Virus record (IMG/VR): IMGVR_UViG_3300027917_000021
Location: 62,001 to 126,000 of that record
Direction: 5' to 3' (one strand)
DNA: 64,000 nt
Source: a virus
Shown here: in pieces, positions 2,268 to 33,672 of the stretch
Layout: every line of letters starts with the position of its first letter
Numbering within the stretch: position 1 is the stretch's first letter
Notes under the pieces: generated by a model
The model's database searches: none
Told to the model about the DNA's origin: nothing
The model's input: only the letters and a program-made list of their open reading frames with translations
Made by a program: the position numbers and the translations under genes

Positions 2268-2688
2268 ACAAAGTAAAGCAGAAAGTAAAAAACAACAAAG
2301 ATTCATGGGCATGGTTCATGCTGTGCAAAAAGGAGAATTATCTCCTAAAGAAGTTGGACCAGCAGTTCGTAAAGCTGCCCGTGAAATGAAATATAAAGAT
2401 GCGAAAGACTTCGCAGAAACAAGCCACAAAGGATTACCAGAAAAAAAAGGGTCAGTACAAATGAAGTATTTTGAGAAAACAGCTTTCAAACCTATGGAGG
2501 CATTAAAAAACATATTTAGTAAAGGACCTGGTACAGCTATGGTAAAAGCAGCCCCAACAGCAGTTATGACACAAGCCCCAAAAGCCCAACAAAAAGTAAA
2601 ACGCTTGTTTGATGCAAGGGCTCTTGCCTCTGCAGGCATAGGCGGTGCTGCAGCAGGCTATGGTTTAGGATCAATTGGTAGCGAATAA
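2260..2688 (+). CDS. DUF3008-like domain joined to an MKYFEK-tagged glycine-rich segment
   Basis: Residues 1-65 match the small DUF3008 family (KKQQRFMGMVHAVQKG, then DAKDFAETSHKGLPEKK). Normally that would be a complete protein. Here the frame runs on without a stop into MKYFEKTAFKP at residue 68, the same octapeptide that begins the following genes, and then into a hydrophobic glycine/alanine-rich end (GIGGAAAGYGLGS). The ATG at 2461 could also start a separate 76-aa tagged protein, although only a weak AAGGG lies before it. Overlaps the HNH stop by 8 bases. It may be a fusion formed by loss of a stop codon, or a deliberate two-start gene. Confidence 0.7.
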   Translation: MYKQSKAESKKQQRFMGMVHAVQKGELSPKEVGPAVRKAAREMKYKDAKDFAETSHKGLPEKKGSVQMKYFEKTAFKPMEALKNIFSKGPGTAMVKAAPTAVMTQAPKAQQKVKRLFDARALASAGIGGAAAGYGLGSIGSE

Positions 2689-2819
2689 TAAAATATTTTA
2701 TAAAAAACACATCCTAAAAGATTTGTTAAAGGAATCTTGGGACTAGGCACTGGTTTAGCCATCGCAGGATATGGGCTCAGTGGAGGAAGTATTAAAAATA
2801 AAAATAAGGAAAAATTATA
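2688..2819 (+). pseudogene. Decayed MKYFEK-family gene
   Basis: Directly after the preceding stop the DNA reads ATAAAATATTTTATAAAAAA. This is the tag-coding sequence with the ATG changed to ATA and the glutamate codon to ATA, giving IKYFIKNTS and then a stop. In a shifted frame it continues HPKRFVKGILGLGTGLAIAG to a stop at 2819, which is the glycine-rich membrane-like segment typical of the intact neighbours. Start codon loss plus one frameshift is the simplest explanation. Confidence 0.7.
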
Positions 2820-2822
2820 AAA

Positions 2823-3239
2823 ATGAAATATTTTGAGAAATTAGCCAAAGAAGACCCGGGATATTTTGGAAAACAAATGGCTGCAACACGAGCATCGAGA
2901 ATTCATGATTCTGCGGCCGGGACATTAGTTGCAGATCCGAAATTGATTAAGAAAAGATTTGAAAAAGCAATTACATATGGTGTTCCAGCAGCTATAGGAG
3001 GTGCCGGAGTAGGAGCTTTAGTAGGAAAAATGAAGGGATATACAGGTTTCGGAGCAGCAGCTGGTGCTATATTAGCAGGTTATGGCGGTGAAGTAGCCGG
3101 CATACTGAAAGCAGACAAAGAATATTTAGCTAAAAAAGGAATTGAATTATCAGCATTTGGAAACGTCAAGAAAATGACTCCAGAGGCAAAAAAGAAATAT
3201 TTACACGAGAAATACCGCGGCGGCGGTTATAAAGGATAG
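2823..3239 (+). CDS. MKYFEKLA-tagged glycine-zipper protein (138 aa)
   Basis: Begins MKYFEKLAKEDPGYFG. The middle (residues 55-95) is a glycine/alanine-rich hydrophobic hairpin (AAIGGAGVGALVGKMKGY then GFGAAAGAILAGYGGE) of the glycine-zipper type, which can insert in or cross membranes. The C-terminus is basic. No enzyme motif is present. It sits in a run of five short paralogous-looking genes that share the N-terminal octapeptide and membrane-like core. Inference: internal virion or ejection protein, with the tag as packaging signal. Confidence 0.7.
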   Translation: MKYFEKLAKEDPGYFGKQMAATRASRIHDSAAGTLVADPKLIKKRFEKAITYGVPAAIGGAGVGALVGKMKGYTGFGAAAGAILAGYGGEVAGILKADKEYLAKKGIELSAFGNVKKMTPEAKKKYLHEKYRGGGYKG

Positions 3240-3249
3240 GAAAATAAAA

Positions 3250-3660
3250 ATGAAGTATTTTGAAAAAATAGCTATATCAAAAGAAGAAGAACAAACTTAC
3301 AAAAGAGCCCCATATAGGCTAGTGCCTTATGTAGGGCCATATTTAGGGACTCCAAAAGGTATGAGAAAAGAACATCCTTGGGTTTCGGCTCTATGGGGAC
3401 CCCCGGGGTCATTTGGTGCAAAATCAAAAGATACTGGAAAATCTTATTTAGAAGAAGCAGTTAAAACTGAAGCAGCAGTTCAAACTGGTATTGGTGCCGT
3501 AGCAGGCACTGTAGCAGGCGCTATGGCAGGAGCTAGAGGAAAACAATTAGCCAAAGTTATTGCTGCAGCTACAGGAATTGGTGCGGCCAGTGGGGCGGCC
3601 GGCGGTGCAATTGCTTACGGCGGTGGAAAATTATTTGCTGGGCAAAAGAAAAAAAAATAA
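3250..3660 (+). CDS. MKYFEKIA-tagged glycine-zipper protein (136 aa)
   Basis: Begins MKYFEKIAISKEEEQ. Residues 35-60 are aromatic and proline-rich. Residues 78-130 form a long Gly/Ala hydrophobic stretch (VAGTVAGAMAGARG, then GIGAASGAAGGAIAYGGG) ending in lysines. The start has AGGAAAATAAAA upstream. It has the same plan as the neighbours (tag, polar part, glycine zipper, basic end), but sequence similarity outside the tag is low. Confidence 0.7.
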   Translation: MKYFEKIAISKEEEQTYKRAPYRLVPYVGPYLGTPKGMRKEHPWVSALWGPPGSFGAKSKDTGKSYLEEAVKTEAAVQTGIGAVAGTVAGAMAGARGKQLAKVIAAATGIGAASGAAGGAIAYGGGKLFAGQKKKK

Positions 3661-3690
3661 TGAAATATAATGAAATATAATGAAATATAA
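3661..3690 (+). repeat. Three tandem copies of a 10-bp tag-start sequence
   Basis: TGAAATATAA occurs three times head to tail (3661-3670, 3671-3680, 3681-3690) and runs into TGAAATATTTTG, the true start of the next tagged gene. Each unit recreates ATGAAATAT, so three decoy starts precede the real one and all are closed by in-frame stops. This looks like replication slippage on the tag-coding DNA. Confidence 0.85.
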
Positions 3691-4394
3691 TGAAATATTT
3701 TGAAAAAAATGCTGCATCTGGTTCCATAGGTCTTTGGCCAGTTCCTAAAAATCTTGCAGGGGCGGCAATAGGAGCTACTATTTTTGGCCTTTCTGGATAT
3801 TCAGATGCAGATAAGGATAATAAATGGACATCTACAGCCAGTTCTGCATTATTAGGAGGAGTATTAGGCGCCGGAGCACAAGGTGCAGCAAGAGCAATGA
3901 AAAAATCTTTTAAGACGTCATTAAAAATGACAAAAAACATGTCAAAAAAAGACAATCCATTGGGCCAATATTTGTCAGAAGGCGTTGATCCTGCTGTAGA
4001 AAAAAGCAAGCGAGTGATGGACAAATTAAAACGTCAGGAAGACAAAATTAGGTCTCATAAAGCTAGCAAAAGTGGTTTTATGTATGAAGATGCAGTAAAA
4101 TATGTTAGGGAAAAGAAGGCTGCTACATTTAGAGTTTCTGAAAAAGATTTAACAAACAAAGAACTTCAACATGAGTTGAGAAGACCATATTTTGAAGGAT
4201 CTTTGCAGAATATGGCTTTTGGTGGAACATTTGGTGCAACCGCTTCTTTGCTTAATAAAGGAAAATCATACGGAAAAAATCTTCTAACTGGTGTTGCGGC
4301 TGGACTCATAGCAACTCCTATAGTTAATGCGTTAGATAAAAAAGACATATTAAAAGAAGTAGATCGCAGAAAGAAACACAAAGGTTATAGATAG
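3690..4394 (+). CDS. MKYFEKNA-tagged protein with two hydrophobic hairpins (234 aa)
   Basis: Begins MKYFEKNAASGS. Residues 20-35 and 50-70 are glycine-rich hydrophobic segments. Residues 70-165 are basic and helical. Residues 175-215 hold another hydrophobic stretch (FGGTFGATASLLNKG, then LLTGVAAGLIATPIV). The start is the last of four tandem ATGAAATAT units. It is the largest of the membrane-like tagged proteins and ends in an ATAGTGAA overlap with the next gene. Function unknown; inferred internal virion protein. Confidence 0.7.
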   Translation: MKYFEKNAASGSIGLWPVPKNLAGAAIGATIFGLSGYSDADKDNKWTSTASSALLGGVLGAGAQGAARAMKKSFKTSLKMTKNMSKKDNPLGQYLSEGVDPAVEKSKRVMDKLKRQEDKIRSHKASKSGFMYEDAVKYVREKKAATFRVSEKDLTNKELQHELRRPYFEGSLQNMAFGGTFGATASLLNKGKSYGKNLLTGVAAGLIATPIVNALDKKDILKEVDRRKKHKGYR

Positions 4395-4666
4395 TGAAAT
4401 ACTTTGAAAAAATATCAGAGTATAAAGAGTGGGATGATAGACACGCATTCACAGAAAATATACCGGGAGGTGCTGCTATCGGAGCTTTCGTTGGTCCAAT
4501 AGCTGCTAAATTACAAGCACAATTAATAAATCGTAAATTAAAAGCTATAGAAGAAATTAAACCATTTAAACCCGCCTTAATTAGAGCGAGCATTATTGGT
4601 GGTTTATTAGGGTCCATTGTTGGAGCTGGTAAATATGTCTATGAAAAAGAATACTACACAAAATAA
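4394..4666 (+). CDS. MKYFEKIS-tagged membrane-like protein (90 aa), GTG start
   Basis: The GTG start overlaps the previous stop (TAGTG). The GTG was chosen because it restores the octapeptide MKYFEKIS at the N-terminus. Two hydrophobic glycine-containing segments follow (GGAAIGAFVGPIAAKL, then ASIIGGLLGSIVGAG). It overlaps the next gene by 32 bases. The Ser in place of Ala at position 8 is also seen in the tagged gene at 8421. Confidence 0.7.
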   Translation: MKYFEKISEYKEWDDRHAFTENIPGGAAIGAFVGPIAAKLQAQLINRKLKAIEEIKPFKPALIRASIIGGLLGSIVGAGKYVYEKEYYTK

Positions 4667-6682: not shown

Positions 6683-6878
6683 AATAAGATTAATTAATTC
6701 CAATGCTGTTCGAGAAGCAAAACCAGTGCCTGCTTTAGCAAACATACAAAATATGGTATCAAGAAAATTGGCTGAATTAAATATTTATACTACTAATTTA
6801 TCAATCACGATGACTGCAGGAAAATATCCTGATGTAAATATAGAAGGTGTTTTAAATACAGATTTATGGCCAAAATAG
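6675..6878 (+). CDS. Hypothetical protein (67 aa) between terminase genes
   Basis: Overlaps the previous stop by 8 bases and the terminase start by 13 bases, so translation is probably coupled. The product ends in a beta-like segment (LSITMTAGKYPDVNIEGVL). No motif recognised. Confidence 0.6.
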   Translation: MTKIRLINSNAVREAKPVPALANIQNMVSRKLAELNIYTTNLSITMTAGKYPDVNIEGVLNTDLWPK

Positions 6879-8419
6879 TTAAAATAGCCCCTAGCCAGTT
6901 TACAGAGCGATTTCTCTATCTAAATGGTAAACCGTTTTCATTTTCGAATTATGAATTCATGAAACCGATTTATGATTTAGATGCATCAGAAATTGTAATG
7001 AAATTTTCTCGTCAAACATCAAAGTCTACTACCATGGCGAATATTATGATGTCTAAAGCGGCCATGACACCGCATTTTAGACAATTGTATGTATCACCTT
7101 CAGTAGACCAAACAAAAATATTTTCTGGTGATCGTGTAGCACCGGTAATTGAATCAAGCCCTATTGTTAAAAAGCATTATGTGAATTCGAATGTATCACA
7201 GAATGTGTTTACAAAACGATTCCTTAACGGAAGTGTGCTATATCTCAGATATGCACAACAATCAGCTGACCGCCTCCGTGGTTTGTCAACCGATATAAAT
7301 TACTACGACGAAGCACAGGATTTGAATATGGAGATCATTCCTGTTGTTAATCAGTCTATGTCCAGGTCTTTATATAAAAAGACAGTTTATTCCGGAACTC
7401 CAAAAAGAACAAAAGGTACGTTAGCTGAACTTTGGTACCGCTCCACAATGTATGAATGGTTCTCTAAATGTGAGCATTGTGGTAAGTGGAATTACTTAGA
7501 TCAGAAAAACATCGGGTTGCATGGTGTCATATGCCGATACTGTGGGGAGCATCTTGACACTTCTAAAGGTCAATGGGTTAGTACTGGAGACAGAGATTCT
7601 AGAACCAAGGGTTTTAGGGTTAACCTATTGATGTTTGAGGCAGCACCCTGGGTTGATTGGCAAACTGACGTTATAGAGTACCGTAAGACTTGTCCAAGTG
7701 ATGCTATTTTTTATAATGAAGTTTTAGGTCTAGAATATGACGACGGTGTACAGCCAATCACCCTTGCTGATTTAAGAAGGTGTGCAACTGGCGGTCCGAT
7801 GCTGGAAGATCCAACCCAATTAGACTTATCAAGAGTACATACAACAATGGGGTTAGATTATGGGCCGGTAAACAGTAATAAATCTAAAACAGTTGCCTGT
7901 GTTATACAAAGAGATTCCGATAAAATAAAAGTTAAATATTTAAAAAGATATAAAGGCCATGAGGCTGATTATTCTTTTATTCATGGTGATATTCCACAGA
8001 TTTTTGCCAAATGGCATGCGGTGGTTATAGGGGCTGATGCTGGATTAGGAGATGGCCCTAATTCTGAAATACGGGCGCGTATTGGTATGCCTGAGCGATT
8101 GATTGCATTTAGGCATTCAGGATCACAAAGAGCAAAAGCAAAGTGGAATCCAAGTAGCAGTGAGTATACGCTTAATCGCAATATGGTCATGACAGACCTG
8201 TTCCGCAAGATTAAAAACAGACAAGTAGAGTTCCCTCGTTGGGAAGACTTTGAGCCTTTTGCCGACGATTTTATGAATATTGTAATCGAATATGATGATC
8301 GTTTAGGTACATATAAATATGTAAATACTGGCCCAGACGATGCACTACATTCAATTTTGTTTGGTGAGTTGGCACTTCAATTATTAACCGCGCGTGACGC
8401 AATGTTGATGGACTATTAA
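6866..8419 (+). CDS. terL: Terminase large subunit
   Basis: The DNA-packaging motor: N-terminal ATPase plus C-terminal RNase H-like nuclease, acting at the prohead portal. Residues 50-60 hold a non-standard Walker A (SRQTSKSTT). Walker B is NYYDEAQD near residue 150, followed by the coupling motif SGTPKR. Residues 190-225 contain a zinc-ribbon insert (CEHCGKW and CRYCGEH). The nuclease acidic residues are in GLDYGP near 330, GADAG near 390 and the TGPDDALHS motif near the end. 517 aa is normal for the family. It is followed one base later by a tagged gene. Confidence 0.9.
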   Translation: MAKIVKIAPSQFTERFLYLNGKPFSFSNYEFMKPIYDLDASEIVMKFSRQTSKSTTMANIMMSKAAMTPHFRQLYVSPSVDQTKIFSGDRVAPVIESSPIVKKHYVNSNVSQNVFTKRFLNGSVLYLRYAQQSADRLRGLSTDINYYDEAQDLNMEIIPVVNQSMSRSLYKKTVYSGTPKRTKGTLAELWYRSTMYEWFSKCEHCGKWNYLDQKNIGLHGVICRYCGEHLDTSKGQWVSTGDRDSRTKGFRVNLLMFEAAPWVDWQTDVIEYRKTCPSDAIFYNEVLGLEYDDGVQPITLADLRRCATGGPMLEDPTQLDLSRVHTTMGLDYGPVNSNKSKTVACVIQRDSDKIKVKYLKRYKGHEADYSFIHGDIPQIFAKWHAVVIGADAGLGDGPNSEIRARIGMPERLIAFRHSGSQRAKAKWNPSSSEYTLNRNMVMTDLFRKIKNRQVEFPRWEDFEPFADDFMNIVIEYDDRLGTYKYVNTGPDDALHSILFGELALQLLTARDAMLMDY

Positions 8420-8420
8420 T

Positions 8421-8834
8421 ATGAAATACTTTGAAAAATTGTCAGGTTTTGGTGATTTTACTAGAAAAATGTTTAGTTATCATGACCTAGATAAAATGTC
8501 GGAAGAAACAAAAATACCTAAAAAATATTTAGAATATCAGTATCATAATACCCGTGTTCCAAATTCTTTTTTGTATTCATATGACAATGCTAAAAAAGAT
8601 ATGACAAAACTTTATAATTTAAGAAAAACATATGAAACTACCAGAGCACCACTACTTAAACTTAAAGAAGGATCAAAAGAAGACAAAGCCTTTTTAAAAA
8701 AGAATAAAAAAACTTTAGATAGTCAATTATTGGCCTGGGCAACGTACGGTAAGGGATTGCAAGAAAAATATCATAAGATAAAAAATCAACCGTCAGGTAC
8801 AATAGATTACAAAAAAAATTTAAAGAATAAATGA
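8421..8834 (+). CDS. MKYFEKLS-tagged basic protein (137 aa)
   Basis: Begins MKYFEKLSGFGDFTRK. The rest is lysine- and tyrosine-rich, probably helical, with no glycine-zipper segment and no recognised motif. It ends in an ATGA overlap with the next tagged gene. The high positive charge would suit DNA binding inside a capsid, which is inference only. Confidence 0.65.
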   Translation: MKYFEKLSGFGDFTRKMFSYHDLDKMSEETKIPKKYLEYQYHNTRVPNSFLYSYDNAKKDMTKLYNLRKTYETTRAPLLKLKEGSKEDKAFLKKNKKTLDSQLLAWATYGKGLQEKYHKIKNQPSGTIDYKKNLKNK

Positions 8835-9241
8835 AATATTTTAAAAAGTTAGCTGCCGGGCCACCTGTTATTTTTAAAGTCCACCCAAAGAATCCAGAGG
8901 TAAAAGGAGCTTATATAATGCCTCGAAGAGAATGGGAAGTTTATCGTATTACACAAGATGAGGCTTTAGCAAATAAAGTTAGGAAAAAGGGGGCAATTCT
9001 TATAAATCCGGCAATAAAAGATCCAGAGCATATAAAGAAAATTAAACGTCATGAGTTGGTCCATTATTTACGACATAAAAACCGTCAGTGGTCGTCTATG
9101 AATTATGGTGCACTTCCCGGGGCACGTTTTGTTGAAGAAACGGCAGCATACGGGAAAGTACATGGAAGCAAAATAAAAGGCATGTTACATGCTATGAAAT
9201 CATCAAAACCTATAAGAGCAGTAGGAAAATTATTACATTGA
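8831..9241 (+). CDS. MKYFKKLA-tagged HExxH metallopeptidase-like protein (136 aa)
   Basis: Begins MKYFKKLAAGPP (E5 of the tag is K). Residues 75-82 carry HELVHYLRH, a zincin-type HExxH, and a downstream glutamate in FVEETAAYG could be the third zinc ligand. A paralogue with the same plan is at 10593-11081 (HELVHHLRA, IVEETAAHG). I read both as small zinc peptidases or inactive relatives. Because they carry the tag they may be packaged and delivered. Stop and start overlap the next gene (TTGA). Confidence 0.65.
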   Translation: MKYFKKLAAGPPVIFKVHPKNPEVKGAYIMPRREWEVYRITQDEALANKVRKKGAILINPAIKDPEHIKKIKRHELVHYLRHKNRQWSSMNYGALPGARFVEETAAYGKVHGSKIKGMLHAMKSSKPIRAVGKLLH

Positions 9242-10593
9242 GATACTTCGAAAAAAATGCCGATATTGTAAGAGAGTATAAAGATAGTCCAAAAGGATTG
9301 TTATATATTGCTCCAACTGGCTCTGGCAAAACTAAAAAAATATTAGAAGCTACTAGAAATGATCAGGCTGTTGCCATTACTCCAGCGTCAATAACAAAAA
9401 ATCTAGATAAAGAAGAACGTAAATTTTTTAATACACGTTCTTCAAGAAAATCTTTTACGTATGCTAAATTATCTCGTGGTGTTGATCTTCCGGAAAGAAA
9501 ACATTTGATATTGGACGAATCTCACAATATAAAAAATCCTAAGACAAAAACTTTTCAGAATATAGCATTACAAAGATGGAAGTTTGACAAAGCACTTTTA
9601 GCAACAGCAACGCCGATGTATAATGAACCATACGATATTGTATCCCAGGTGAATCTTGTTGCCAATCAAAAAGTTCTTCCAATGAATAAAAAAGATTTTT
9701 ACAAAAAATTTTATACGGAAGTTCAAAACGATCCTGGGCTAGTTGGACGTTTATTAGGAATTAAAGGTGCTAAAGAAAGAGTTTTAAAAGATCCAAAGCA
9801 TGTTCGCTCATTATTAGATAAGCATACTTATGTAGTCAGTGGTAATAAAGTAGAAAAACTTTTACCAAAGAAAGATGAAGAAATTGTTAAAGTTCCGATG
9901 TCAAAGAATCAGCAGGAACTTTATAAATACGTAAGTAAAAAATTGCCTTTTTATTTAAAATACAAAATACAAAGGAATCTTCCTCCAACTAAAACAGAAC
10001 AGAAAGACTTAAATAGATATTTGATGGGAGTAAGACAGGTTTCTAATACAACTCGTGGGTATAGTAGTACTCCTGAAAGTCCCAAATTTGAAAAAATGGT
10101 AGCTGACGCAAGAACAGAATTAAAGGCTGGAGGAAAAGTATTAATGTATTCAAACTTTAGAGAATCTGGAGTTGATGCATTATCAAAACGTTTAGAAAAC
10201 TTAAAAATTCCACATGGCAAGATCGTTGGAAGTATGACCAAAAAACAAAGGGCAGAAGAAGTATCAAAATATACAAGCAACAAAAATAAAGTATTACTAT
10301 ACAGTGGGGCCGGATCAGAAGGATTAAATTTACCAAAAACAACTTTGGTACAAATAGCAGAACCTTTTTGGAACAAATCAAGAATAGAACAAGCAGAAGC
10401 AAGAGGAATACGTAGAGGTGATGATCCCAAAAGAACTGTAAAAGTTAAAAAATACTTGTCAGTATTTCCGGAAGAGAAAAATATATTTGGTAAGAAGAAA
10501 CAAAAACGTGCTGTGGATGAGTATCTGGTAGAAATGTCAAATAGAAAAAACAAAGAAATAAAACAACTGCTTGAGGCAATAAAGGACGAGTAA
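9238..10593 (+). CDS. MRYFEKNA-tagged SNF2-like superfamily 2 helicase
   Basis: The TTG start was chosen because it gives the tag MRYFEKNA and overlaps the preceding stop. Helicase motifs occur in order: Walker A APTGSGKTKK (about 26-35), DEAH-type LDESHN (about 97), LLATATP (about 120), SGAGSEGLNLPKTT (about 358) and the arginine-finger motif EQAEARGIRRG (about 386). At 451 aa it is a compact SNF2 or RapA-type translocase without accessory domains. A tagged helicase is odd, because it implies packaging in the virion. Phage P1 DarB is a known injected helicase-containing antirestriction protein, which suggests an early protective role (inference). Confidence 0.8.
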   Translation: MRYFEKNADIVREYKDSPKGLLYIAPTGSGKTKKILEATRNDQAVAITPASITKNLDKEERKFFNTRSSRKSFTYAKLSRGVDLPERKHLILDESHNIKNPKTKTFQNIALQRWKFDKALLATATPMYNEPYDIVSQVNLVANQKVLPMNKKDFYKKFYTEVQNDPGLVGRLLGIKGAKERVLKDPKHVRSLLDKHTYVVSGNKVEKLLPKKDEEIVKVPMSKNQQELYKYVSKKLPFYLKYKIQRNLPPTKTEQKDLNRYLMGVRQVSNTTRGYSSTPESPKFEKMVADARTELKAGGKVLMYSNFRESGVDALSKRLENLKIPHGKIVGSMTKKQRAEEVSKYTSNKNKVLLYSGAGSEGLNLPKTTLVQIAEPFWNKSRIEQAEARGIRRGDDPKRTVKVKKYLSVFPEEKNIFGKKKQKRAVDEYLVEMSNRKNKEIKQLLEAIKDE

Positions 10594-11081
10594 TGAAATA
10601 TTTTGAAAAACAGGCAGCAGGGCCACACGTAGTGTATGATACTATACCAAAAGAATTTGGGAATCTAAGAGGTGGATATTTATCAGACAAGTATATTAAG
10701 TATGTCCCAAAAAAATGGCAGGAAAGTACAAAAAAGAAAAAAGGACTTGTCATGATAAGTAAACCTATTCATGATCAGTTAATAAACAAATATGAATCAG
10801 ATCTTATAATACAAGGACTGCCAAAGCCAGTCATTGAAAAAGAAACGAAAAGATACGGAAATAAAATTATACAAAATACAAAAAGACATGAATTAGTGCA
10901 TCATTTACGTGCACAAAAAGGCAAATGGTCTAGTATAGAGACTGGCAAAAACCCAATTAAAAGAATAGTAGAAGAAACTGCGGCACATGGGAGAGTGGCA
11001 GGAAATAAATGGAAAGGGTTTAAAGAAGCCACAGAACTACATGCTCCAAAAATATACAAAATTATAAAAAAATTAATATGA
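10593..11081 (+). CDS. MKYFEKQA-tagged HExxH metallopeptidase-like protein (162 aa)
   Basis: Begins MKYFEKQAAGPHVVYD. Carries HELVHHLRA near residue 97 and IVEETAAHG near 128, as in the paralogue at 8831-9241. The two also share AAGP after the tag and a matching K-W-S-S segment after the histidines. The gene overlaps its neighbours by 1-4 bases (GTAATGA and ATATGA). The two copies flank the helicase, which suggests duplication followed by insertion, or a functional trio. Confidence 0.65.
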   Translation: MKYFEKQAAGPHVVYDTIPKEFGNLRGGYLSDKYIKYVPKKWQESTKKKKGLVMISKPIHDQLINKYESDLIIQGLPKPVIEKETKRYGNKIIQNTKRHELVHHLRAQKGKWSSIETGKNPIKRIVEETAAHGRVAGNKWKGFKEATELHAPKIYKIIKKLI

Positions 11082-11491
11082 AATACTTTGAGAAGCAGGC
11101 AGACTTTTCCGAATGGTGGGATAACCGCAAAGAAGATTGGCAACAAGCAAAATACTTAGCTAAACATAAATATTATGTTTATAAAGGTGGCCGAGAACTT
11201 GGTGCAGATCCTATTACGTTGTTAAAACATGATTGGTCAAAATTAAAACCATCAATATGGGTGCCATATCGTGAATTTTTTTATGGTGGACATGGAAAAG
11301 ACCCTATGGTATTTCATGAGTTTCGAAGAGCTGTAGGAAAACATGTAGCCTCAGAAACACACCACGATTATAAATACAAAAACACAGGTAAACCCACAGC
11401 GGAAAATATAGCTGATTGGTGGAGCATTCAAAAAATACATCATCCGGAAACTCCGGATATTAAAACTTGGATTAGAAAAGGTGTAAAATAA
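11078..11491 (+). CDS. MKYFEKQA-tagged DUF5662-like protein (137 aa)
   Basis: Begins MKYFEKQADFSEWW. The central part (HKYYVYKGGRELG, then LLKHDWSKLKPSIWVPYREF) resembles the DUF5662 family of small phage and bacterial proteins, in which conserved H, D and W residues suggest an HD-like metal site. Residues HVASETHHDYKYK may complete it. This is the last gene of the second tagged cluster; a new promoter follows. Confidence 0.65.
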   Translation: MKYFEKQADFSEWWDNRKEDWQQAKYLAKHKYYVYKGGRELGADPITLLKHDWSKLKPSIWVPYREFFYGGHGKDPMVFHEFRRAVGKHVASETHHDYKYKNTGKPTAENIADWWSIQKIHHPETPDIKTWIRKGVK

Positions 11492-11557: not shown

Positions 11558-12517
11558 ATGACAAACGAGCAAATCGAATACTTCGGAAAAGAAGCGGCTA
11601 AAACATACCTTGAAGAAGGCACTGAATTAAATGAAACAATTACAAAAATAGCAGAAGAACACGCTCTTAACCGATATGAAATCGAAAGAATAGTAGAAGC
11701 GGCAAACACTAATACTTATTTATCTATGTTTAGTAATTTAGATGATAAATATATAGAATTTCCAGTAGCAGATGTTGAAAAAATAGCAGAAGCTTTATCG
11801 CCTATTGTGGAAGATGATCCGTATTATGATTATGATGAGCCGCCTGAAAAAGAATTAGAAGAAGTACAAATTTTTCCAGTTGAGGGTGCTGAGAAGACAT
11901 CCTCCGTTGCAGAAGAAAACAAGTTTTCTTCTGAAAATCTTCAATTCCGTCAGCGTGCTAAGTATGCAGAACAACAATTGATAGAAAGAATATCTCTAGC
12001 TGAGAATGCTTTTTCGGAGGAAACAGAGAATCTTTATCAAATGGTAAAACAAGCGGTGCTATCTGGTACCCGCTTCGGGCATATCAAAGCCGCGATGGAA
12101 CAGTACTCTCCTGGAAAATTTGTAGAAAAATTTGCTGAGTATACAAAAGAAAGATTAAAAAAAGAAGATCTTAGACTTGATCTTTCTGATTGTGAAGAAA
12201 AACTTGGTACAGTAAATAAAAATAATGAAATTATGAAGCAGCTTGATAAGATTGCAAATATTTATGGTGAAGCTGCTGTGTATAATGAAAAACTTGCAGC
12301 TTTTGGTTTAGATGTTGTCCGCCGCCTAGGTTCCGGTGCAATGAATTTTGGAAGAGGTGCTTTACGGTTCGCGGATACACACTCACGTACGGCATTATTT
12401 GGAACTGCAGCCGCAGGAGCTGTTGGTAGTGGTATAGCATATAAAGCAGGAAAAACAAAAGCTGAATATGAATTGTCTGCCATCCGAAACATACCACAAA
12501 AATATCAGAAGAGGTAA
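11558..12517 (+). CDS. Head/core protein with EKxA motifs and C-terminal membrane-like segment (319 aa)
   Basis: The N-terminus (MTNEQIEYFGKEAAKTY) looks like a divergent version of the MKYFEKxA tag. The protein is acidic and helical and contains several EKxA sequences (EKIAE, EKFAE, EKLAA). It ends in a glycine/alanine hydrophobic segment (TALFGTAAAGAVGSGIAY) and a basic tail. It lies two genes upstream of the prohead protease, in the place where scaffold or core proteins usually are. Inferred role: prohead core or internal head protein cut by the protease. No family recognised. Confidence 0.6.
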   Translation: MTNEQIEYFGKEAAKTYLEEGTELNETITKIAEEHALNRYEIERIVEAANTNTYLSMFSNLDDKYIEFPVADVEKIAEALSPIVEDDPYYDYDEPPEKELEEVQIFPVEGAEKTSSVAEENKFSSENLQFRQRAKYAEQQLIERISLAENAFSEETENLYQMVKQAVLSGTRFGHIKAAMEQYSPGKFVEKFAEYTKERLKKEDLRLDLSDCEEKLGTVNKNNEIMKQLDKIANIYGEAAVYNEKLAAFGLDVVRRLGSGAMNFGRGALRFADTHSRTALFGTAAAGAVGSGIAYKAGKTKAEYELSAIRNIPQKYQKR

Positions 12518-12520: not shown

Positions 12521-13159
12521 ATGAAAAATGTGGAGCGAATAATCCGCCTTTATAAAGATGGAAAAATAGATGACACAACCATGGTTAAGATGGCAGTATT
12601 CAAAGAAAAGGTTGCAGAACTGATTAAAGAAAGTGGGCCCGGCGGTTTAACAAAAAATCAAGTATTGATGGCAGCTGCAATCTCTGCTGGTATTGGTTTG
12701 GGAAGTCAGGCTATTGAAAGTTTATCTAATTACTTTATAACAACGCGTGCAAAAAAACAATTAGATGAAACAACCGAGAAAATATTTGAAGATATTTATA
12801 ATTCACCGGAAGTAAAATCCTTTCCACGTGAAGTTGCGGAACAATATTTTAATACATTGAAACATTTTTCACCACATGTTGCCTCTGATCCATTAGCTGC
12901 AAAAACTTATTTATTGCAAATGCTCAAATGGTCAGATGAATATTCCGCTCCTATATCTACTATGACTGTAAGAGATTTAGCAGAAGTAGAAAATAAAGCT
13001 ATGGATGCTTTAAATAAAAGACCACTAGCAGGACCAGATATTGGTAAATTTACAGCACCAATTGTGGAGAGCATACAAAAAGCACCAAAAAACTTGTATA
13101 CGGAAATAAAAGAAACGCCACAGTCACTTCAAACAAGTATGTTTAACGAATATGATTAA
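12521..13159 (+). CDS. Head-module protein with hydrophobic segment (212 aa)
   Basis: The N-terminus is helical (MKNVERIIRLYKDGKID), followed by FKEKVAELIK, another EKxA site at about 29-32. A hydrophobic stretch (VLMAAAISAGIGLGSQ) lies near 50-65, and the remainder is helical. It overlaps the protease gene by 8 bases. Probably another core or internal head component; too short for a portal protein. Confidence 0.55.
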   Translation: MKNVERIIRLYKDGKIDDTTMVKMAVFKEKVAELIKESGPGGLTKNQVLMAAAISAGIGLGSQAIESLSNYFITTRAKKQLDETTEKIFEDIYNSPEVKSFPREVAEQYFNTLKHFSPHVASDPLAAKTYLLQMLKWSDEYSAPISTMTVRDLAEVENKAMDALNKRPLAGPDIGKFTAPIVESIQKAPKNLYTEIKETPQSLQTSMFNEYD

Positions 13160-14891
13160 ATATTTAGATTATTATCCAGGCGATAAAGGCGTTGAAATTT
13201 CTCTGATACATCCTGGTGTAATGGAGAAAACAGCCGAATATCATCCGGAACTACAAGAATTTTTACAAGTTTTAAAACCAGACCCAAAAAGATACTTTCT
13301 TTTAGTCAATGCATTAGGTGCAGGCGAATATTATGGCAGTAATCGCAATGGTGATTATTTCCCTGAACCTGCTTTGGTTGAATATCATAAGACCTTTGAA
13401 ACACTTGGAAAAGTATTTAGACATCACAAAAATAAACCTCAATTAGGCCATCGTGTTTATGGTGAAATTCTTTATTCTCATTATAATCCTAAAATGCACA
13501 GAGTAGAATTGGTTATTGGGCTTGATGTTGGTGCAGCACCAGATCTAAAAGAAAGAATTGATCGTGGTGAATTTCCACCAATTTCTATGGGATCGAAAGT
13601 TCCTTATGATGAATGTTCTATTTGTGGTAATAAAGCACCAAGAATACAGGATTATTGTGAACACGCAAAAACAATGATGAATCATGTTATGCCTGATGGT
13701 CGTAAAGTTTATGTTATTAATCGCAAACCTAAGTTTTTTGATATCAGCTTCGTTCATGTGCCGGCCGATCGTACAGCATATACTTTACGAAAAGTTGCTG
13801 AATACGTAGAAGAGGAACCATCGGCTATTAAAACTGCAAAAGCATTAAAACAGGCTGGCATTAAAGAATCAACCATCGTAAAAATCATAGATGGTCAAGT
13901 TGACTATGCCGGGCCAGATCCAAGCCGTCTTATTGTAGAATCACAGCCTAATATGTCAAAAAGGCTGATTAATGATTTGGCACATTCAGCCCCATTAAAT
14001 GAAGTACTAAGTACTCTCGTAGCTACAAGAGTTATGCCTAAAAAAGCAGAATTTCAAAGATTAATATTAACTGCAAAAGGCCAAGAAAAATTAGCAGAAG
14101 AACTTGAGAGAGAAAAAGTTTGTTTTATTATACATGATGATATTGAACCGGTTATTCCGAATGATGTGAATATTCATCAGTTCAACCAAAAAACAGCAGA
14201 AGTATTACGTTCTTATCCAGAATATTTTGAAAGAGCGCCATTAACTAAACCGGTTGTCATGGCCCGGATACTTGAGAAATATGCATTTTTAGATACTGGC
14301 CATCAAAAAGGCAGTCCAATGGAACAAGCAGGAGTAATCCCTCCTTTAAAAGATATGCCTGACGACAAACAAAATACTCATGGAGAAGAACAGCCTATTA
14401 TATCCCCTATAAAAAACCCACTAATACCTCTTACAGCAATAGGCGGTTTATATTTAGGTGTTTCAAAACTTATGAATTCTTTTGGTGCTGCAGAAGGACT
14501 AAAAGCATTATTGGCAAATAATCCGTGGTTGCTTCCTATACTTATAGGAGGAGCAACTATTGGTAGCATGGAAATGCAAAAGCGATTATTTGAAAAAACT
14601 GCTTCCGGAGTTGGATTTTTAGGAAGTATGTTATTAAGTGTTCCGGCCACTTATCTTTATGCCGGTTTTCAGGAAAACAAAGTAAGGCAAGGCAGACCAA
14701 TAGGCTCTTATTCTAACTTTGTTAGAAAGAATCCTCTATTGGCAAGCATTGGCCATGGTTTTCTTGGCAGTAAGACAACAAAATTGTTGTCTAAAGTAGG
14801 AGAAGCAAAAGGCAAACTTTTTGATGCTTCTCTTCAATTAGATGAACAAAAATTTAATAATATTTATAATATTGTTATACATGGTAATTAG
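13152..14891 (+). CDS. Prohead maturation protease with long C-terminal extension (579 aa)
   Basis: Residues 50-230 resemble phage prohead core proteases: SNRNGDYFPE, a histidine-rich HHKNKPQLGH (candidate catalytic His), PPISMGSKVPYDECSICG (candidate nucleophile Ser followed by a Cys-rich insert) and FFDISFVHVPADRTAY. Such proteases process scaffold and capsid proteins inside the prohead. The C-terminal 350 residues are not needed for that fold. They include EKTA, EKLA, EKYA and a second EKTA, plus a hydrophobic region (WLLPILIGGATIG). The extension may be a scaffold part cut from the enzyme by self-processing. Confidence 0.75.
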   Translation: MIKYLDYYPGDKGVEISLIHPGVMEKTAEYHPELQEFLQVLKPDPKRYFLLVNALGAGEYYGSNRNGDYFPEPALVEYHKTFETLGKVFRHHKNKPQLGHRVYGEILYSHYNPKMHRVELVIGLDVGAAPDLKERIDRGEFPPISMGSKVPYDECSICGNKAPRIQDYCEHAKTMMNHVMPDGRKVYVINRKPKFFDISFVHVPADRTAYTLRKVAEYVEEEPSAIKTAKALKQAGIKESTIVKIIDGQVDYAGPDPSRLIVESQPNMSKRLINDLAHSAPLNEVLSTLVATRVMPKKAEFQRLILTAKGQEKLAEELEREKVCFIIHDDIEPVIPNDVNIHQFNQKTAEVLRSYPEYFERAPLTKPVVMARILEKYAFLDTGHQKGSPMEQAGVIPPLKDMPDDKQNTHGEEQPIISPIKNPLIPLTAIGGLYLGVSKLMNSFGAAEGLKALLANNPWLLPILIGGATIGSMEMQKRLFEKTASGVGFLGSMLLSVPATYLYAGFQENKVRQGRPIGSYSNFVRKNPLLASIGHGFLGSKTTKLLSKVGEAKGKLFDASLQLDEQKFNNIYNIVIHGN

Positions 14892-14964: not shown

Positions 14965-15546
14965 ATGGCTAAAGAAGGATTTAACCTTGAATCTTTTCTA
15001 AAAACTTTAGAAGATGACAAGGAAAAAACAGCTGAAGAAAAAGTAGAAGAACCAGTAGAAGAGCCTACTGAAGAACCTACTGAAGAACCTACTGAAGAAG
15101 AACCAGCAGAAGAAACAAAAACTGCTGAAAATCTCGAAAGAGAAAAAGTAGCTGAGCTGGTGGAAGAAGGCCAAATCATGGCTCGCGCTTTCCACGAAGA
15201 ATTAACAAAACTTGCTGTTGGTGATGGACCTTATACACCAAATCCAGCAGCTATAAAAGAGCCTAACGAAGTTAGCCACATGAGTGTTGGTGACATTAAA
15301 ATGGACCAAACAGCCAAAGTGGAAGCTCTTTTAAATCAAATTCAAGCTGCTGTACGTAGTGGTGGCGGAGACATGACATTTACGTTTAATCCTGGTGGGT
15401 CACAACCGGTAGTACCAGATGAAACCGTACTTCCTGCAGATGCTGCATCAGCACAAAAATCTCAAGCAGCCGCTGCAAGCATGAATAAAGCTGCAGCCGC
15501 AAAAATCATTGATAATCTTTACAAGAAAGTATTTGGAGAAGAATAA
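14965..15546 (+). CDS. Acidic scaffold-like protein (193 aa) with EEPT repeats
   Basis: Very acidic N-terminal half with tandem EEPT/EEPA repeats near residues 30-50, flanked by EKTAEE (about 21) and REKVAEL (about 55). The segment LVEEGQIMARAFHEEL near 62-77 recurs in the next two proteins. The second half is alanine/serine-rich and low-complexity. Charge, repeats and position ahead of the capsid gene fit a scaffold or prohead core protein. An ATAATGG overlap joins it to the next gene. Confidence 0.65.
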   Translation: MAKEGFNLESFLKTLEDDKEKTAEEKVEEPVEEPTEEPTEEPTEEEPAEETKTAENLEREKVAELVEEGQIMARAFHEELTKLAVGDGPYTPNPAAIKEPNEVSHMSVGDIKMDQTAKVEALLNQIQAAVRSGGGDMTFTFNPGGSQPVVPDETVLPADAASAQKSQAAAASMNKAAAAKIIDNLYKKVFGEE

Positions 15547-15839
15547 TGGGACTTTTAGAAACTTACGAAGCCATGCAAAAAGAGGCAGCGGTTGCGGAAG
15601 TTGAAGCCCAACGTCGCGAAATGTTGACGAAATATGCTTCTGCCGCTGAAGAACTTCTTGAGAATGAATATGGCGATGATTATAATGCTGATGATGTAGA
15701 ACTATTAGCTGAGAAATTAATTGAAGCTGATGTAGAGGCTATGGAACAGCAAGAAAAAGTTGCTGAATATGAAGAAGCCGGCAAAATAATGGCACAAGCT
15801 TTTATTAAAGAGCTTAAAGAAAAAAAATCCGAAAAATAA
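15546..15839 (+). CDS. Prohead core-like protein (97 aa)
   Basis: Helical and acidic. LTKYASAAEELLENEYGDDY and DDVELLAEKLIEADVEA align with the first part of the next protein (LEKYAARAENLLSQKFGKNY, DVEKLAEALIRLDVKR), so the two are paralogues. It ends in YEEAGKIMAQAFIKEL, the motif shared with the preceding scaffold-like protein. Inferred head core component. Confidence 0.6.
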   Translation: MGLLETYEAMQKEAAVAEVEAQRREMLTKYASAAEELLENEYGDDYNADDVELLAEKLIEADVEAMEQQEKVAEYEEAGKIMAQAFIKELKEKKSEK

Positions 15840-16292
15840 ATGAACATACAAAGAATACAGTTTCTGGAAAAATATGCTGCCCGAGCTGAAAATCTTTTGT
15901 CACAAAAATTCGGAAAAAATTATACGCCAGAAGATGTAGAGAAACTTGCTGAAGCATTGATACGCCTGGACGTTAAGCGGGCAGCGAATATCGATCGTGT
16001 TGAAGAATTAGTCAAACAGGCACAATATACAGCAAACGCTTTTGTAAAAGAAATAAACAAAGAATTGGGAGAAGATGCTTTTGCTAAATTAGCGAAAGCA
16101 CCTTTTCTTGATGCTTTAAAGCTATTAGTAAAAGGTAAAGGATCCGAGTTCAGCCAAAAACTTATAGGAGCCTTAAAAAATACCGGCCAAAGAACGATGA
16201 AATTTGTAAAAACAGATCCTTATTTGGCTGCCGGATTTGCCGGAGCTGGTGGTGCAACTGCTCTTACTGGCCATGCTTTATTATCGGATTAA
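15840..16292 (+). CDS. Prohead core-like protein with C-terminal glycine-rich segment (150 aa)
   Basis: Residues 1-80 are paralogous to the whole of the preceding protein. The protein then continues with a basic linker and a hydrophobic end (LAAGFAGAGGATALTGHALL) of the glycine-zipper kind found in the MKYFEK proteins. This links the head-core family with the tagged family by architecture. No spacing to the previous gene. Confidence 0.6.
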   Translation: MNIQRIQFLEKYAARAENLLSQKFGKNYTPEDVEKLAEALIRLDVKRAANIDRVEELVKQAQYTANAFVKEINKELGEDAFAKLAKAPFLDALKLLVKGKGSEFSQKLIGALKNTGQRTMKFVKTDPYLAAGFAGAGGATALTGHALLSD

Positions 16293-16298: not shown

Positions 16299-16778
16299 AT
16301 GATTAGTTTGAGAAACTTGTTAAAAGACATAGAAGCATCTGAACAAGAGAAGCATGCCGAACAAAGTCCGGAAATTACTATTGACGATTTACGTAATACA
16401 GCAAAATCTCTTGAAAAATTAGCTTCGCCTGATCGTGAGATTGATGTGATAGCTAAATTAGCAGTTCTTATGGATATGGGTCTTACCAAAGAAGCAGCCG
16501 ATATAGTTACAAAGGCTAAAAAATATCTTTGGAAAGTAAAAGATGCAAACAGGGCTGCAAAAATAATGGAAGAAGCGGGAAATATAGAGAAGGAAACAAA
16601 GAGAATCCAAGAAGGTAAAACTCTTGCTAAATATAAATGGCCTGCTATTGCAACCGCTGGTACAGTAGGTGGTTTGTATTTAGGTTCACAAATATCTGAA
16701 AAAAACAAAAAAGATGAACTTAAAAACGTTGCTCGTAAATACTTCTCTCTTGGCCGACAATCCGCAGGAGGAGCATAA
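16299..16778 (+). CDS. Head-module protein with EKxA sites and hydrophobic segment (159 aa)
   Basis: Helical. EKHAEQ near residue 18 and LEKLASP near 43 are further EKxA-type sites. The C-terminal third holds a hydrophobic segment (AIATAGTVGGLYLGSQI) followed by a basic end. It overlaps the next start (ATAATG). Function unknown; the same general architecture as the other head-core proteins. Confidence 0.55.
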   Translation: MISLRNLLKDIEASEQEKHAEQSPEITIDDLRNTAKSLEKLASPDREIDVIAKLAVLMDMGLTKEAADIVTKAKKYLWKVKDANRAAKIMEEAGNIEKETKRIQEGKTLAKYKWPAIATAGTVGGLYLGSQISEKNKKDELKNVARKYFSLGRQSAGGA

Positions 16779-30776: not shown

Positions 30777-30779
30777 TAA

Positions 30780-33269
30780 ATGATTACATTAGAAAATGTT
30801 ACAGTAGATACTTTAGGACTGGGCAACAGAAGAATACAATGGGAAGTAGTTCCGACACACGAAGATCTTAACCTATTTTTGTTGGATGTATATCGTGCGG
30901 AAGCTCCCGGGGCATTGTCAGAATTTGACCTGGTTGTATCAGGTTTATCTGTTCTCGATGGTACGTATATTGATAGTGGACTGCAAAGAATGGATTATTC
31001 TACAAACCGACAGATATACTATTACCTAAATGTATTAGACACAGGTACCGCGGAAACATCACTCGAAGGTCCATATGTGATGGAATCTGAGCCGGATTAT
31101 GCTTCTAATGAAATACTTCGTCGCTATGGCATTTTCTTTGACAATCCACGCTATCAGGTTCGTACATTTTATGTATTAAAGAAACGTACCTGGGGAAATC
31201 AATGCTCATGCATCGATGATGTAACACAGGAACCTAGAAACGAAAATTGTACTATATGCTATGGTACAGGTATAGTAGGCGGTTATTTTAATCCAATTGC
31301 TGTTCGAGGAATGCGTTCAGACAAGCCAAGTCGCCAAATGATAAACCTGTTTGGAGCATGGCAGGACACTAATGTATTTTTCAAACTGGAAAATACCGTT
31401 AAGGTAATTCCCGGTGATTATATTGTCGACGAACATAATGAAAGATATCTGATCGAAGGGCCTGTAAATCACCTACAAAAGGGTATTTATACCTTGATGA
31501 GTAATGTTCGTGCCAAAACTGTGTCAAAATCAGATCCGATATATCGGTATGGTATGATTGAAGAACTTGGTGGAACCGAGGAAGAGATTATTATAAGCGG
31601 TAATGAAATAGCGGTATTTAATGGGACATCCTCCTATATGGAAATTATAGACAATGATTTATTGTCTTTTTTAAATGGGTCGTTTAGTATTACTGGATGG
31701 TTTGAATTAAATAATGCTCCTCCCGGACCATCAATTTCAGAAACAATAAGTCAAACGGTTTGCGATGATGAAGGTTTATATGAAGCAGAATCCATTACTT
31801 TATCAAATGGCAATGTTTTTATGGCATATTCAGATTACACAAATATTTATGCTTCCTACAACATTATTACACAAAGTGGAACTGAAGTAACTGGTCCAAT
31901 AGTATTGGAAAACACTATGGGCAGTGTATTTAGTGTTACCCAATTAACCAATAATAATATATTTATATGTTATGCATCAGGACCAGACAGTTCAAAACCT
32001 GCCAAGTATGCCTTAGTAGATGAATCTGGAACTTTGCTGGCTGGTCCCATAGCAGTCCCAGGAATTACATATTCCAATTATTTTGGTTGCACTAAAACAA
32101 ATAATGGAAATATTTTTGTAGTATATTCAGACCCCGATGATGGAAATAAAGGGAAATTTATAATTTTAGATAATTCAATTAATTTAATTTTTGGCCCAAC
32201 TACCTTCCATTCCAATGTAACATATTATCAGAGAGTATCTTTATTACAAAATGGTAATATATTTTTAAGTTATTCTAACCAATCGGATAATCGTGGAGAA
32301 TTTGTAATTTATTCTCAAGCCGGAGCACTTATTAAATCTGCTACTATTTTTGAAACAAATCCTGTTTATGATTTATGGAGTTCAATATTAGTAGGAGGAA
32401 ATATAATTATAGTATATGGAACTACATCAGATTCATCTGGTAAATTTACCATATATGATGAAAACGGAAATATAATAAAAACCCCAACTACCTTTGAATC
32501 AGGAGGAGCATCTTATTATAATTCTGTAGCGCCTACATTAGATGATCGAGCTGTTATAGTATATCAAAATCCTTCTAGTTATTATACATCATGTGTAATA
32601 GTTGATAGTGAAGGAACCATAACACAAAGTTCTTTTAATATTAATACTAATGAAACTTATGATTCACATATAACTCTGCTTGGAAATGGAAATGTAATGA
32701 TACTTTATGATGTGTATGATGGAGTAGATACGGCAATTTTACAAGTTTATGATGTAATAGGACAATATCAACCACTATTAGTGAAAGACGATAAATCATT
32801 GAATCATGAATGGATATTAGTATATGATAATTCAGGCAACATACATATTCGCATAATTGGTTCAAACAATAATTTTATAGGTAAATATTATAATTATCCA
32901 ATAAATGGAGAACTTCATCATTATGCAATTACATATAATGGTAATAATTCCTCAGACGGAATTAATTTATATATAGATAATAATTTAGTTCAGTCAATAC
33001 CAAATAATTTAGGAATATATACACCACCAATTAATACAAGTTTAAATGTGTTTATTGGAAAATGGGCAAATTCTTTTTTTGCTGGAAAAGCACGAGATAT
33101 TAAAATATTTAATAAGGCATTATCAAGTGCAGATATAAATCAAGAATATGCCCTGGGAAATTATAGAGTTGGAATAGTTGCAAATTACAAATTACACGAA
33201 GACACAAATGATTATGGAAGATATAGTTTACACGGTATAAACACAGATATAATATTTACACAGGAATAA
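30780..33269 (+). CDS. Large virion protein with zinc finger and C-terminal LamG-like domain (829 aa)
   Basis: The N-terminal 270 residues contain a four-cysteine cluster (CSCIDD, then CTICYGTG) near 143-165, as in some phage neck or tail proteins. A seven- to eight-fold beta repeat follows (LxNGNxFxxYS motif, about 40 residues each, 320-640), which could be a beta-propeller. The last 180 residues look like a LamG/concanavalin-type sugar-binding domain (NGELHHYAITYNGN, then FIGKWANSFFAGKARDIKIF). A receptor-binding function is plausible. Confidence 0.65.
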   Translation: MITLENVTVDTLGLGNRRIQWEVVPTHEDLNLFLLDVYRAEAPGALSEFDLVVSGLSVLDGTYIDSGLQRMDYSTNRQIYYYLNVLDTGTAETSLEGPYVMESEPDYASNEILRRYGIFFDNPRYQVRTFYVLKKRTWGNQCSCIDDVTQEPRNENCTICYGTGIVGGYFNPIAVRGMRSDKPSRQMINLFGAWQDTNVFFKLENTVKVIPGDYIVDEHNERYLIEGPVNHLQKGIYTLMSNVRAKTVSKSDPIYRYGMIEELGGTEEEIIISGNEIAVFNGTSSYMEIIDNDLLSFLNGSFSITGWFELNNAPPGPSISETISQTVCDDEGLYEAESITLSNGNVFMAYSDYTNIYASYNIITQSGTEVTGPIVLENTMGSVFSVTQLTNNNIFICYASGPDSSKPAKYALVDESGTLLAGPIAVPGITYSNYFGCTKTNNGNIFVVYSDPDDGNKGKFIILDNSINLIFGPTTFHSNVTYYQRVSLLQNGNIFLSYSNQSDNRGEFVIYSQAGALIKSATIFETNPVYDLWSSILVGGNIIIVYGTTSDSSGKFTIYDENGNIIKTPTTFESGGASYYNSVAPTLDDRAVIVYQNPSSYYTSCVIVDSEGTITQSSFNINTNETYDSHITLLGNGNVMILYDVYDGVDTAILQVYDVIGQYQPLLVKDDKSLNHEWILVYDNSGNIHIRIIGSNNNFIGKYYNYPINGELHHYAITYNGNNSSDGINLYIDNNLVQSIPNNLGIYTPPINTSLNVFIGKWANSFFAGKARDIKIFNKALSSADINQEYALGNYRVGIVANYKLHEDTNDYGRYSLHGINTDIIFTQE

Positions 33270-33273
33270 ATCA

Positions 33274-33672
33274 ATGAAATATTTTGAAAAAAATGCAGAT
33301 ATACAATATGCCTTGAAAGGAATGGTCAAGGGATTTAAAGCTGGAACAATGGATTTAGCTACCGCAGCAGATAGAATTAAGAGGTTAGCTGAAAGAAAAA
33401 AGAATTTAATGCAATATATAGACTTAAATCCAAATGTATTTGATCAAAATCCTGCCATGGTAGATAAAGTACATCGTTATTCTAAAATGCTTGTTGGAAG
33501 TAATATGTTATATAATAAAAGGCAGGTTGACCTACTTAAGTTAGGTGCAGCACCAGTGCATCCTATGCAAGGCACACTGCTGAATGTGCAAACAAGAGAA
33601 TCACAAACAAAATACAACTCTAAAGTTTTAGGTAAAAAAAGAGCTGACATTTTAGTACCACTATGGCGTTAA
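33274..33672 (+). CDS. MKYFEKNA-tagged protein in the fibre region (132 aa)
   Basis: Begins MKYFEKNADIQYALKG, the only tagged gene far from the two tagged clusters. The product is basic and helical, with no glycine zipper. Overlaps the diguanylate cyclase start by 10 bases, so the two are translated together. Its presence here shows that the tag moves as an independent module and is not a result of local tandem duplication only. Confidence 0.7.
   Translation: MKYFEKNADIQYALKGMVKGFKAGTMDLATAADRIKRLAERKKNLMQYIDLNPNVFDQNPAMVDKVHRYSKMLVGSNMLYNKRQVDLLKLGAAPVHPMQGTLLNVQTRESQTKYNSKVLGKKRADILVPLWR

Follow-up and report, generated by a model that had tools for sequence, protein, structure and literature searches.

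Why should eleven genes of one virus, whose products are for the most part unlike one another, begin with almost the same eight residues? The question is raised by a window of 64,000 nucleotides (bases 62001-126000 of the 155,895-bp virus record IMGVR_UViG_3300027917_000021, here called the own record), in which the N-terminal peptide MKYFEKx[A/S], hereafter the tag, is shared by a helicase, HExxH proteins and small glycine-rich proteins. We conclude that the tag is probably an N-terminal capsid-targeting and processing peptide resembling that of phage T4 and carrying a site for the prohead protease. It ends in a core motif, Phi-x-K-x-[A/S] (Phi, a hydrophobic residue), that recurs in the head proteins of the same phage; the targeting, cleavage, cleaved bond, packaging and ejection of the tagged proteins are what we infer.

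The pattern [M/V/L][K/R]YFEKx[A/S] was found at the start of 10 window genes, at positions 2461, 2823, 3250, 3690, 4394 (a GTG start), 8421, 9238 (a TTG start, with R at position 2), 10593, 11078 and 33274, and an 11th gene, at 8831, begins MKYFKKLA. The original prediction had counted 8831 among the MKYFEK genes, which is correct for the other ten, and its observation that ATG, GTG and TTG starts all keep the tag was borne out at 4394 and 9238. Because the gene caller was greedy, at times accepting false open reading frames (ORFs; 16299-16778 was dropped in this way) and wrong starts, all start codons of the own record were rescanned with a loose tag pattern, and only the same 11 starts were recovered, all inside the window. 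The start at 2461 is a putative one, since this ATG lies within a longer ORF (2260-2688). When N-termini of the own record were searched without supervision, the tag pattern came out in 10 called genes, whereas the best pattern of each of three shuffles reached 4, which rules out chance as the source of the shared tag. Near 2688, where a decayed copy of the tag had been proposed, the sequence reads I-K-Y-F-I-K-N-T-S before a stop codon, and a different frame contains a glycine-rich stretch; with that much to go on, a decayed copy is plausible but unproven.

Compared in pairs, the 11 starts had an average DNA identity of 0.86 across the tag's first 18 bases; the average fell to 0.34 in the 40 bases before the tag and to 0.29 after it, random stretches giving 0.27. 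In codons 2-6 the differences summed over all gene pairs were 93 synonymous and 20 nonsynonymous, in agreement with the synonymous variation noted earlier. Since the flanks are unrelated and the codon differences within the tag are mostly synonymous, the conserved entity is the peptide, not the DNA. Like the T4-type capsid-targeting sequence, it is a short N-terminal peptide common to otherwise different proteins. The earlier description of these proteins as otherwise unrelated fits most of them, but not all, since the products of 8831 and 10593 form a paralogous pair (50% over 60 amino acids with the tag removed).

The link between the tag and the phage head is the motif itself. EKxA occurs 39 times in the own genome (mean of 16 after shuffling, maximum 28 of 200 shuffles) and EKxAE 11 times (1.3 after shuffling). 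With the tags excluded, 17 copies of EKxA fall within the 2,295 residues encoded by the head-module genes as called, and the remaining 45,612 residues hold 14, or 7.4 versus 0.31 per 1000 residues. On the plus strand of the window, the motif-bearing head-module genes encode a 319-residue protein (11558..12517) with three EKxA (six Phi-x-K-x-A), a second protein (12521..13159) with one EKxA at residue 29, the predicted 579-residue prohead protease (13152..14891) with four, and the major capsid protein (17622..18542) with one. Between the last two lie genes for proteins that we call scaffold-like from their position and make-up: an acidic one with two EKxA (14965..15546), one with a single EKxA (15546..15839), one with two, the first at residue 10 (15840..16292), one with EKHA and EKLA (16299..16778), which the gene caller missed and which is absent from the counts, and a 114-residue protein with three (16778..17122). 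The tag thus contains the motif of the same phage's protease, scaffold-like and capsid proteins, as a T4-type targeting sequence does. Head modules of relatives (72 loci found through the capsid protein, the EKxA survey covering part of those of at least 9 kb) were also EKxA-rich in most loci viewed. The motif is, in addition, concentrated at protein starts: among 2,026 genes pooled from 12 contigs, with the start Met excluded, Phi-x-K-x-A began 96 times at residues 2-11 and 45, 37 and 44 times in the next bins, the corresponding numbers for the reversed motif being 20, 29, 24 and 29. Counting the start Met as Phi gave 103 vs 42, 43 and 41 in 2,040 genes; we prefer the Met-free count. A 635-residue protein encoded at base 22116 of the own record (L093:6216-8120), outside the head module, has eight Phi-x-K-x-A; it gave no Pfam, PHROG or PDB match and is possibly a portal or other core protein.

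The product of gene 13152 matched phrog_18299, a head maturation protease (E 4e-10), and its first 245 residues were modelled. With VIA-align the best match of the protease domain model was the varicella-zoster virus protease (1vzv; Z 10.4, root-mean-square deviation 2.7, 115 residues aligned), T4 gp21 (5jbl) gave Z 10.1, deviation 2.9 and 128 aligned, and the top 35 rows were exclusively herpesvirus proteases (assemblins) or gp21; the predicted structure has the gp21/assemblin fold. S145 and H92, putative catalytic residues, were invariant in 15 of 15 aligned sequences. Alignment A3 leaves out L041, which had been taken for a protease in alignment A1 and turned out to be a different protein, as well as L055 and L056, which contain insertions. 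The protease genes of L003, L014, L029, L055, L056, L060 and L066 are about 910-1370 codons long (about 590 in the others), with large insertions that are perhaps inteins. The capsid protein matched phage D3, HK97 and encapsulin chains in Foldseek (best E 4e-9, TM-scores about 0.4-0.6), phrog_2522, and, by sequence, gp27 of phage G (6wkk; E 1.5e-17); it combines the HK97 fold with kinship to a known capsid protein.

In both proteins the motif occupies a fixed place near the N-terminus. In the protease it is MEKTA, residues 24-28 (13221..13235, plus strand), a candidate site of self-cleavage that closes a tail predicted with low confidence (the first 26 residues of the model are mostly below 50 in pLDDT, the predicted local distance difference test) and lies directly before the folded domain. 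Each of the 29 distinct protease sequences compared (37 loci) has KxA at this site, and Phi stands two before the K in 27 of the 29 (28 without the fixed-site requirement; we prefer 27). The candidate maturation cleavage site of the capsid protein is REKLA, residues 23-27 (17688..17702, plus strand), and KxA was found there in 42 of 46 distinct sequences (73 of 74 loci examined), 33 of them with Phi. Far relatives, Salmonella phage Arash and Vibrio phage D69, carry a looser Phi-x-K-x-A at the equivalent places.

The original prediction had proposed a search of related genomes for the tag at protein starts, and related phages are indeed tagged, mostly with variants of their own that end in Phi-x-K-x-[A/S]. 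The loose pattern matched in 5 of 17 records searched, 11 of which (G001-G004, G006, G008-G011, G013 and G014, not G005, G007, G012 or G015-G017) were read wholly or nearly. G004 (capsid protein 55% identical) has 19 starts with MKYF[T/E/K]Kx[A/S], 16 of them with T (MKYFTKxA) and one belonging to a 28-residue ORF. Ten G008 genes begin with AFxDELxKIA, seven in G011 with MDKAxxxFEKLA-like sequences, six in G009 with IEKIAxA, four in G010 with LGFxKxA (one being LGFKNKA, which lacks the motif K), and three in G006 with MDKA. These patterns were selected post hoc, and their expected number in shuffled N-termini was at most 0.01. In the unsupervised search the tag exceeded the shuffled maximum in the own record (10 vs 4), G001 (6 vs 3), G004 (17 vs 3), G008 (7 vs 5), G009 (6 vs 4) and G011 (6 vs 4), so that it is clear without supervision in 6 of 12 contigs, with G010 marginal (4 vs 3). 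The top pattern in G002 was a different small-ORF family, those in G003 (4 vs 3) were head-motif hits, and G006, G013 and G014 gave no pattern above shuffling; the tags of these five records rest on the post hoc patterns. G002 also contains an expanded family between 15.5 and 20.9 kb (L109, L110), where about 15 very small ORFs with MKVKFFxQPYLLY-like starts are arrayed. The MKYFEK and MKYFTK DNA patterns, searched across all of IMG/VR, returned relatives and other contigs, the latter possibly by chance.

Cargo proteins that are homologous carry whichever tag their own genome uses. When tags were stripped before comparison, the SNF2-like helicase had long matches in six other records, and its start reads MRYFEKNA in the window, MRYFEKIA in G001, MKYFTKLA in G004, MDKALFIFEKLA in G006 and MHVATLTAFEDELEKEA in G008 (there with the start moved to an internal ATG). 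It is therefore tagged in five of the seven full-length homologues seen, with four tag types; a 153-residue G013 protein (30% identity over 90 residues) was left out of this count. In G001 (11082-12929, minus strand) the helicase is fused after an HExxH-type part, which in the window is a separate tagged gene. The DUF5662 protein carries MKYFEK in the window and G001 and MDKAEVLFEKLA in G011; its G006 homologue has no tag, and G013 has the homologous stretch within a larger protein, likewise untagged. Tags are also exchanged in three more pairs of homologues, G011/G010 (58% over 83 residues), G004/G011 and G008/G009 (the latter two over about 40 residues only). These results argue that the tag belongs to the phage and not to the protein.

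A comparable layout is found in T4. As a control, the T4 motif [LI]xE[AGSTV] was located at residue 7 of the protease gp21, eight times in the scaffold protein gp22 (2.1 expected) and at residue 63 of the capsid protein gp23, and [LI]xE was located in the starts (MKTYQEFIAEA) of the internal proteins IPII and IPIII, in agreement with the T4 pathway as given in the available part of the published account (PMC9958956). The two layouts are close, a short N-terminal peptide on internal proteins carrying the motif of the protease N-terminus, the scaffold and the capsid protein, but the motif differs. Because the window tag lacks [LI]xE, having Phi-x-K-x-[A/S] instead, we class it as working like the T4 capsid-targeting sequence, not as being one. 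Tags are also more numerous, on 11 genes in the window and 19 starts in G004, as opposed to a few in T4, and here the tags vary by lineage on homologous cargo, with no sequence homology to the T4 tags shown. The unsupervised search applied to T4 returned homing-endonuclease and other families (5 vs 4), the IPII/IPIII tags being only part of one pattern, so that T4 is not a clean control.

The precedents for the tag are the T4 capsid-targeting sequence of internal proteins, which gp21 cuts, and the signal of P1 DarB, which likewise directs cargo to the capsid from the N-terminus; the P1 paper, in the portion available, finds no consensus among Dar N-termini, whereas a plain one is present here. 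SPN3US, of the phiKZ type, is similar: it is a large phage that packages many proteins, and a single short motif guides its prohead protease (gp245) in cutting N-terminal propeptides, some of them at several sites. It differs in that the motif is A-X-E, the propeptides are mostly long and 42 head proteins reportedly escape cleavage, and the available part of the SPN3US account does not mention a shared octapeptide tag. In searches of open-access literature for targeting sequences and for the tag letters (subscription papers not covered), no account of these tags was listed. Cargo-loading peptides of encapsulins are also short and direct unrelated cargo to an HK97-fold shell; they are typically C-terminal and are not known to be proteolysed.

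Virions of phage Arash have been analysed by mass spectrometry, the virion list comprising 115 of the 251 coding sequences analysed (PMC10585845); our statements on Arash virions refer to the available part of that report. All 11 motif-rich Arash proteins, at a threshold set by our analysis, are in the list (p = 1.4e-4). The Arash helicase gp217, which is untagged and 29% identical to the tagged helicase of the window, was represented by 38 unique peptides (1,148 spectra); helicase packaging therefore has a precedent in the family, and for the tag itself, gp217 being untagged, the detection gives no direct virion support. The Arash authors caution that some enzymes detected may be carry-over from infected cells (PMC10585845). 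Sequence-coverage figures were not used to look for cleavage because several proteins with two unique peptides are listed at 100% coverage. Arash was also considered as an independent case of a tag and rejected: the unsupervised search gave no shared tag, its best pattern (5 vs 4) being unrelated. The Arash virion proteome (L119-L122) includes a multi-subunit RNA polymerase and a sigma factor besides the helicase, and one motif-rich Arash protein, gp242, is encoded outside the head module.

In the mechanism we envisage, the protease would free itself from its N-terminal propeptide by cutting the motif, would shred the scaffold-like proteins at the same motif and would trim the capsid protein there; a cut at or near the Ala/Ser of the tag would release the tag, the cargo would stay in the head, and it would later exit together with the DNA. 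The core of the original prediction, a T4-like tag for packaging cargo, gains strong indirect support from the motif common to the protease, scaffold-like and capsid proteins, the lineage-specific tags, the cargo dressed in the tag of its own genome and the similar T4 layout; taken overall, the prediction was upheld in part, the effector role that it proposed for the cargo being hypothetical. Several observations weigh against it. The four distinct capsid sequences of 46 without KxA all belong to one clade, the capsid protein of the window has R at the Phi position, and the capsid motif lies within a predicted helix (residues 20-41). The homologous capsid protein of phage G (6wkk), examined for a cleavage site, lacks the motif, and its solved chain contains 280 residues of a 282-residue product. 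Two scrambled motifs also showed some N-terminal excess (39 vs 21-24; 37 vs 22-36), strict Phi-E-K-x-A was not concentrated N-terminally in 1,019 proteins of the relatives' loci (11 at residues 1-12 and 15 at 13-20), and the whole motif is present in only one of three MDK starts of G014. Plain Foldseek placed MlaD-like folds over gp21 (E 0.11) for the protease model, with no match below E 0.001, and T4 DNA polymerase also has five [LI]xE sites where 2.5 are expected. The motif-rich Arash set consists largely of head proteins, expected in virions anyway, and Arash proteins with an N-terminal Phi-x-K-x-A are not enriched in the available virion list (4 of 8, p = 1.0; 0.22 at five or more peptides). 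The helicase homologues of G010 and Arash are untagged, so that the tag is not always needed for packaging. Finally, in Pfam searches of eight G008/G006 proteins, one tagged G008 protein matched MazG just above the cut-off (one T4_Rnl1_C match fell below it), and the cargo may therefore include metabolic enzymes.

The main rival to a cleaved targeting peptide is an uncut docking peptide for the scaffold, the portal or the inner face of the capsid, with Phi-x-K-x-A serving as a binding motif of head assembly. The helical setting of the capsid motif favours docking somewhat, the motif is repeated many times in the scaffold-like proteins, and the N-terminal packaging signal of P1 DarB is described, in the part of the P1 paper available, without cleavage. 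However, the motif sits at one fixed N-terminal site of the protease, immediately before the folded domain, short fixed residues amid variable neighbours suit a protease site, and the layout resembles that of T4, whose protease is known; we therefore regard docking without cleavage as unlikely.

There are two further rivals. If the tag served expression or another destination, as a translation start region or in sorting to the membrane or a host site, its likeness to the head motif would be coincidental. That several tagged proteins are small and glycine-rich and that the tags lie at the extreme protein start would suit such a role, but it is the peptide that is kept while the upstream DNA is unrelated, the tags of different lineages converge on their head-protein motif, and the tagged clusters flank the terminase gene and precede that of the protease, so that we consider this role very improbable. 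Alternatively, the tagged 5' ends may have been copied from one ancestral gene and, without function, not yet have diverged, as the paralogy of 8831 and 10593 might suggest; we give this almost no credence, given that synonymous changes predominate in the tag, that the DNA after it is near random identity and that homologous cargo in relatives bears other tags. A peptide that targets cargo to the head and is processed there remains our preferred reading.

Ten of the 11 tagged genes flank the gene for the untagged terminase large subunit (6866..8419; phrog_675, GpA_ATPase), which sits between two tagged clusters, and end just ahead of the head module; all are on the plus strand. The first cluster encodes a 75-residue protein with a glycine-rich end (MKYFEKTA, 2461..2688, from the putative start within ORF 2260-2688), three glycine-rich proteins of 138 (MKYFEKLA, 2823..3239), 136 (MKYFEKIA, 3250..3660) and 234 residues (MKYFEKNA, 3690..4394), and a 90-residue protein (VKYFEKIS, GTG start, 4394..4666) whose G001 homologue is tagged too. 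A stretch homologous to the 138-residue protein occurs in an untagged 253-residue protein of G013. The second cluster encodes a 137-residue protein (MKYFEKLS, 8421..8834), the paralogous HExxH proteins of 136 (MKYFKKLA, 8831..9241) and 162 residues (MKYFEKQA, 10593..11081), both with HELVH, the 451-residue SNF2-like helicase homologous to gp217 (LRYFEKNA, TTG start, 9238..10593) and the 137-residue DUF5662 protein (MKYFEKQA, 11078..11491), whose G011 homologue has the MDKAxxxFEKLA tag. The 11th gene (MKYFEKNA, 132 residues, 33274..33672) lies away from the main clusters, and its G002 homologue is also tagged. In Pfam, among nine of the 11 proteins (2461 and 4394 left out), only the helicase and the DUF5662 protein passed the cut-offs, and ten G004 proteins gave no match at E 0.01. 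The ejected Dar proteins of P1 offer an analogy by which the helicase, HExxH, glycine-rich and DUF5662 proteins could act at DNA entry; that the helicase is an anti-restriction factor is a guess.

The terminase position holds unusually long ORFs in L007, L018, L056, L058 and L060. Two window proteins contain LigD-type 3'-phosphoesterase domains, an untagged one (4617-5075, plus strand) adjoining the end of the first tagged cluster and another (34904-36250, plus strand) with DNA ligase matches as well. A phage-encoded PAS-PAS-GGDEF diguanylate cyclase (33663-34904, plus strand) lies immediately 3' of the tagged gene at 33274, and the minus strand carries genes for a sigma-70 factor with regions 1.2, 2 and 4 (49434-50216) and a ThiF-like protein (53840-54451). 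A scan of bacterial and archaeal genomes returned five contigs, in metagenome-assembled genomes of differing groups, and gave no host call.

The set of proteins that a phage packs and injects is usually known through virion proteomics alone. With a readable tag, the sequence would suffice to predict such sets in uncultivated phages (11 genes in the window, 19 starts in G004), Phi-x-K-x-A would be a proposed specificity for a prohead protease family, and the tags are candidates for loading foreign cargo into phage heads. More tentatively, one could envisage that a family of large environmental phages uses a private, lineage-specific address code, an N-terminal tag of 8-17 residues with the protease site as its constant end and a variable part fitted to a receptor in the lineage's head core that co-evolves with it. 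A gene that picked up the local tag would thereby enter the set of those delivered at infection. If this were true, a single sequence search would list the packaged proteins of such a phage, and the tags would bar its cargo from the heads of competitors.

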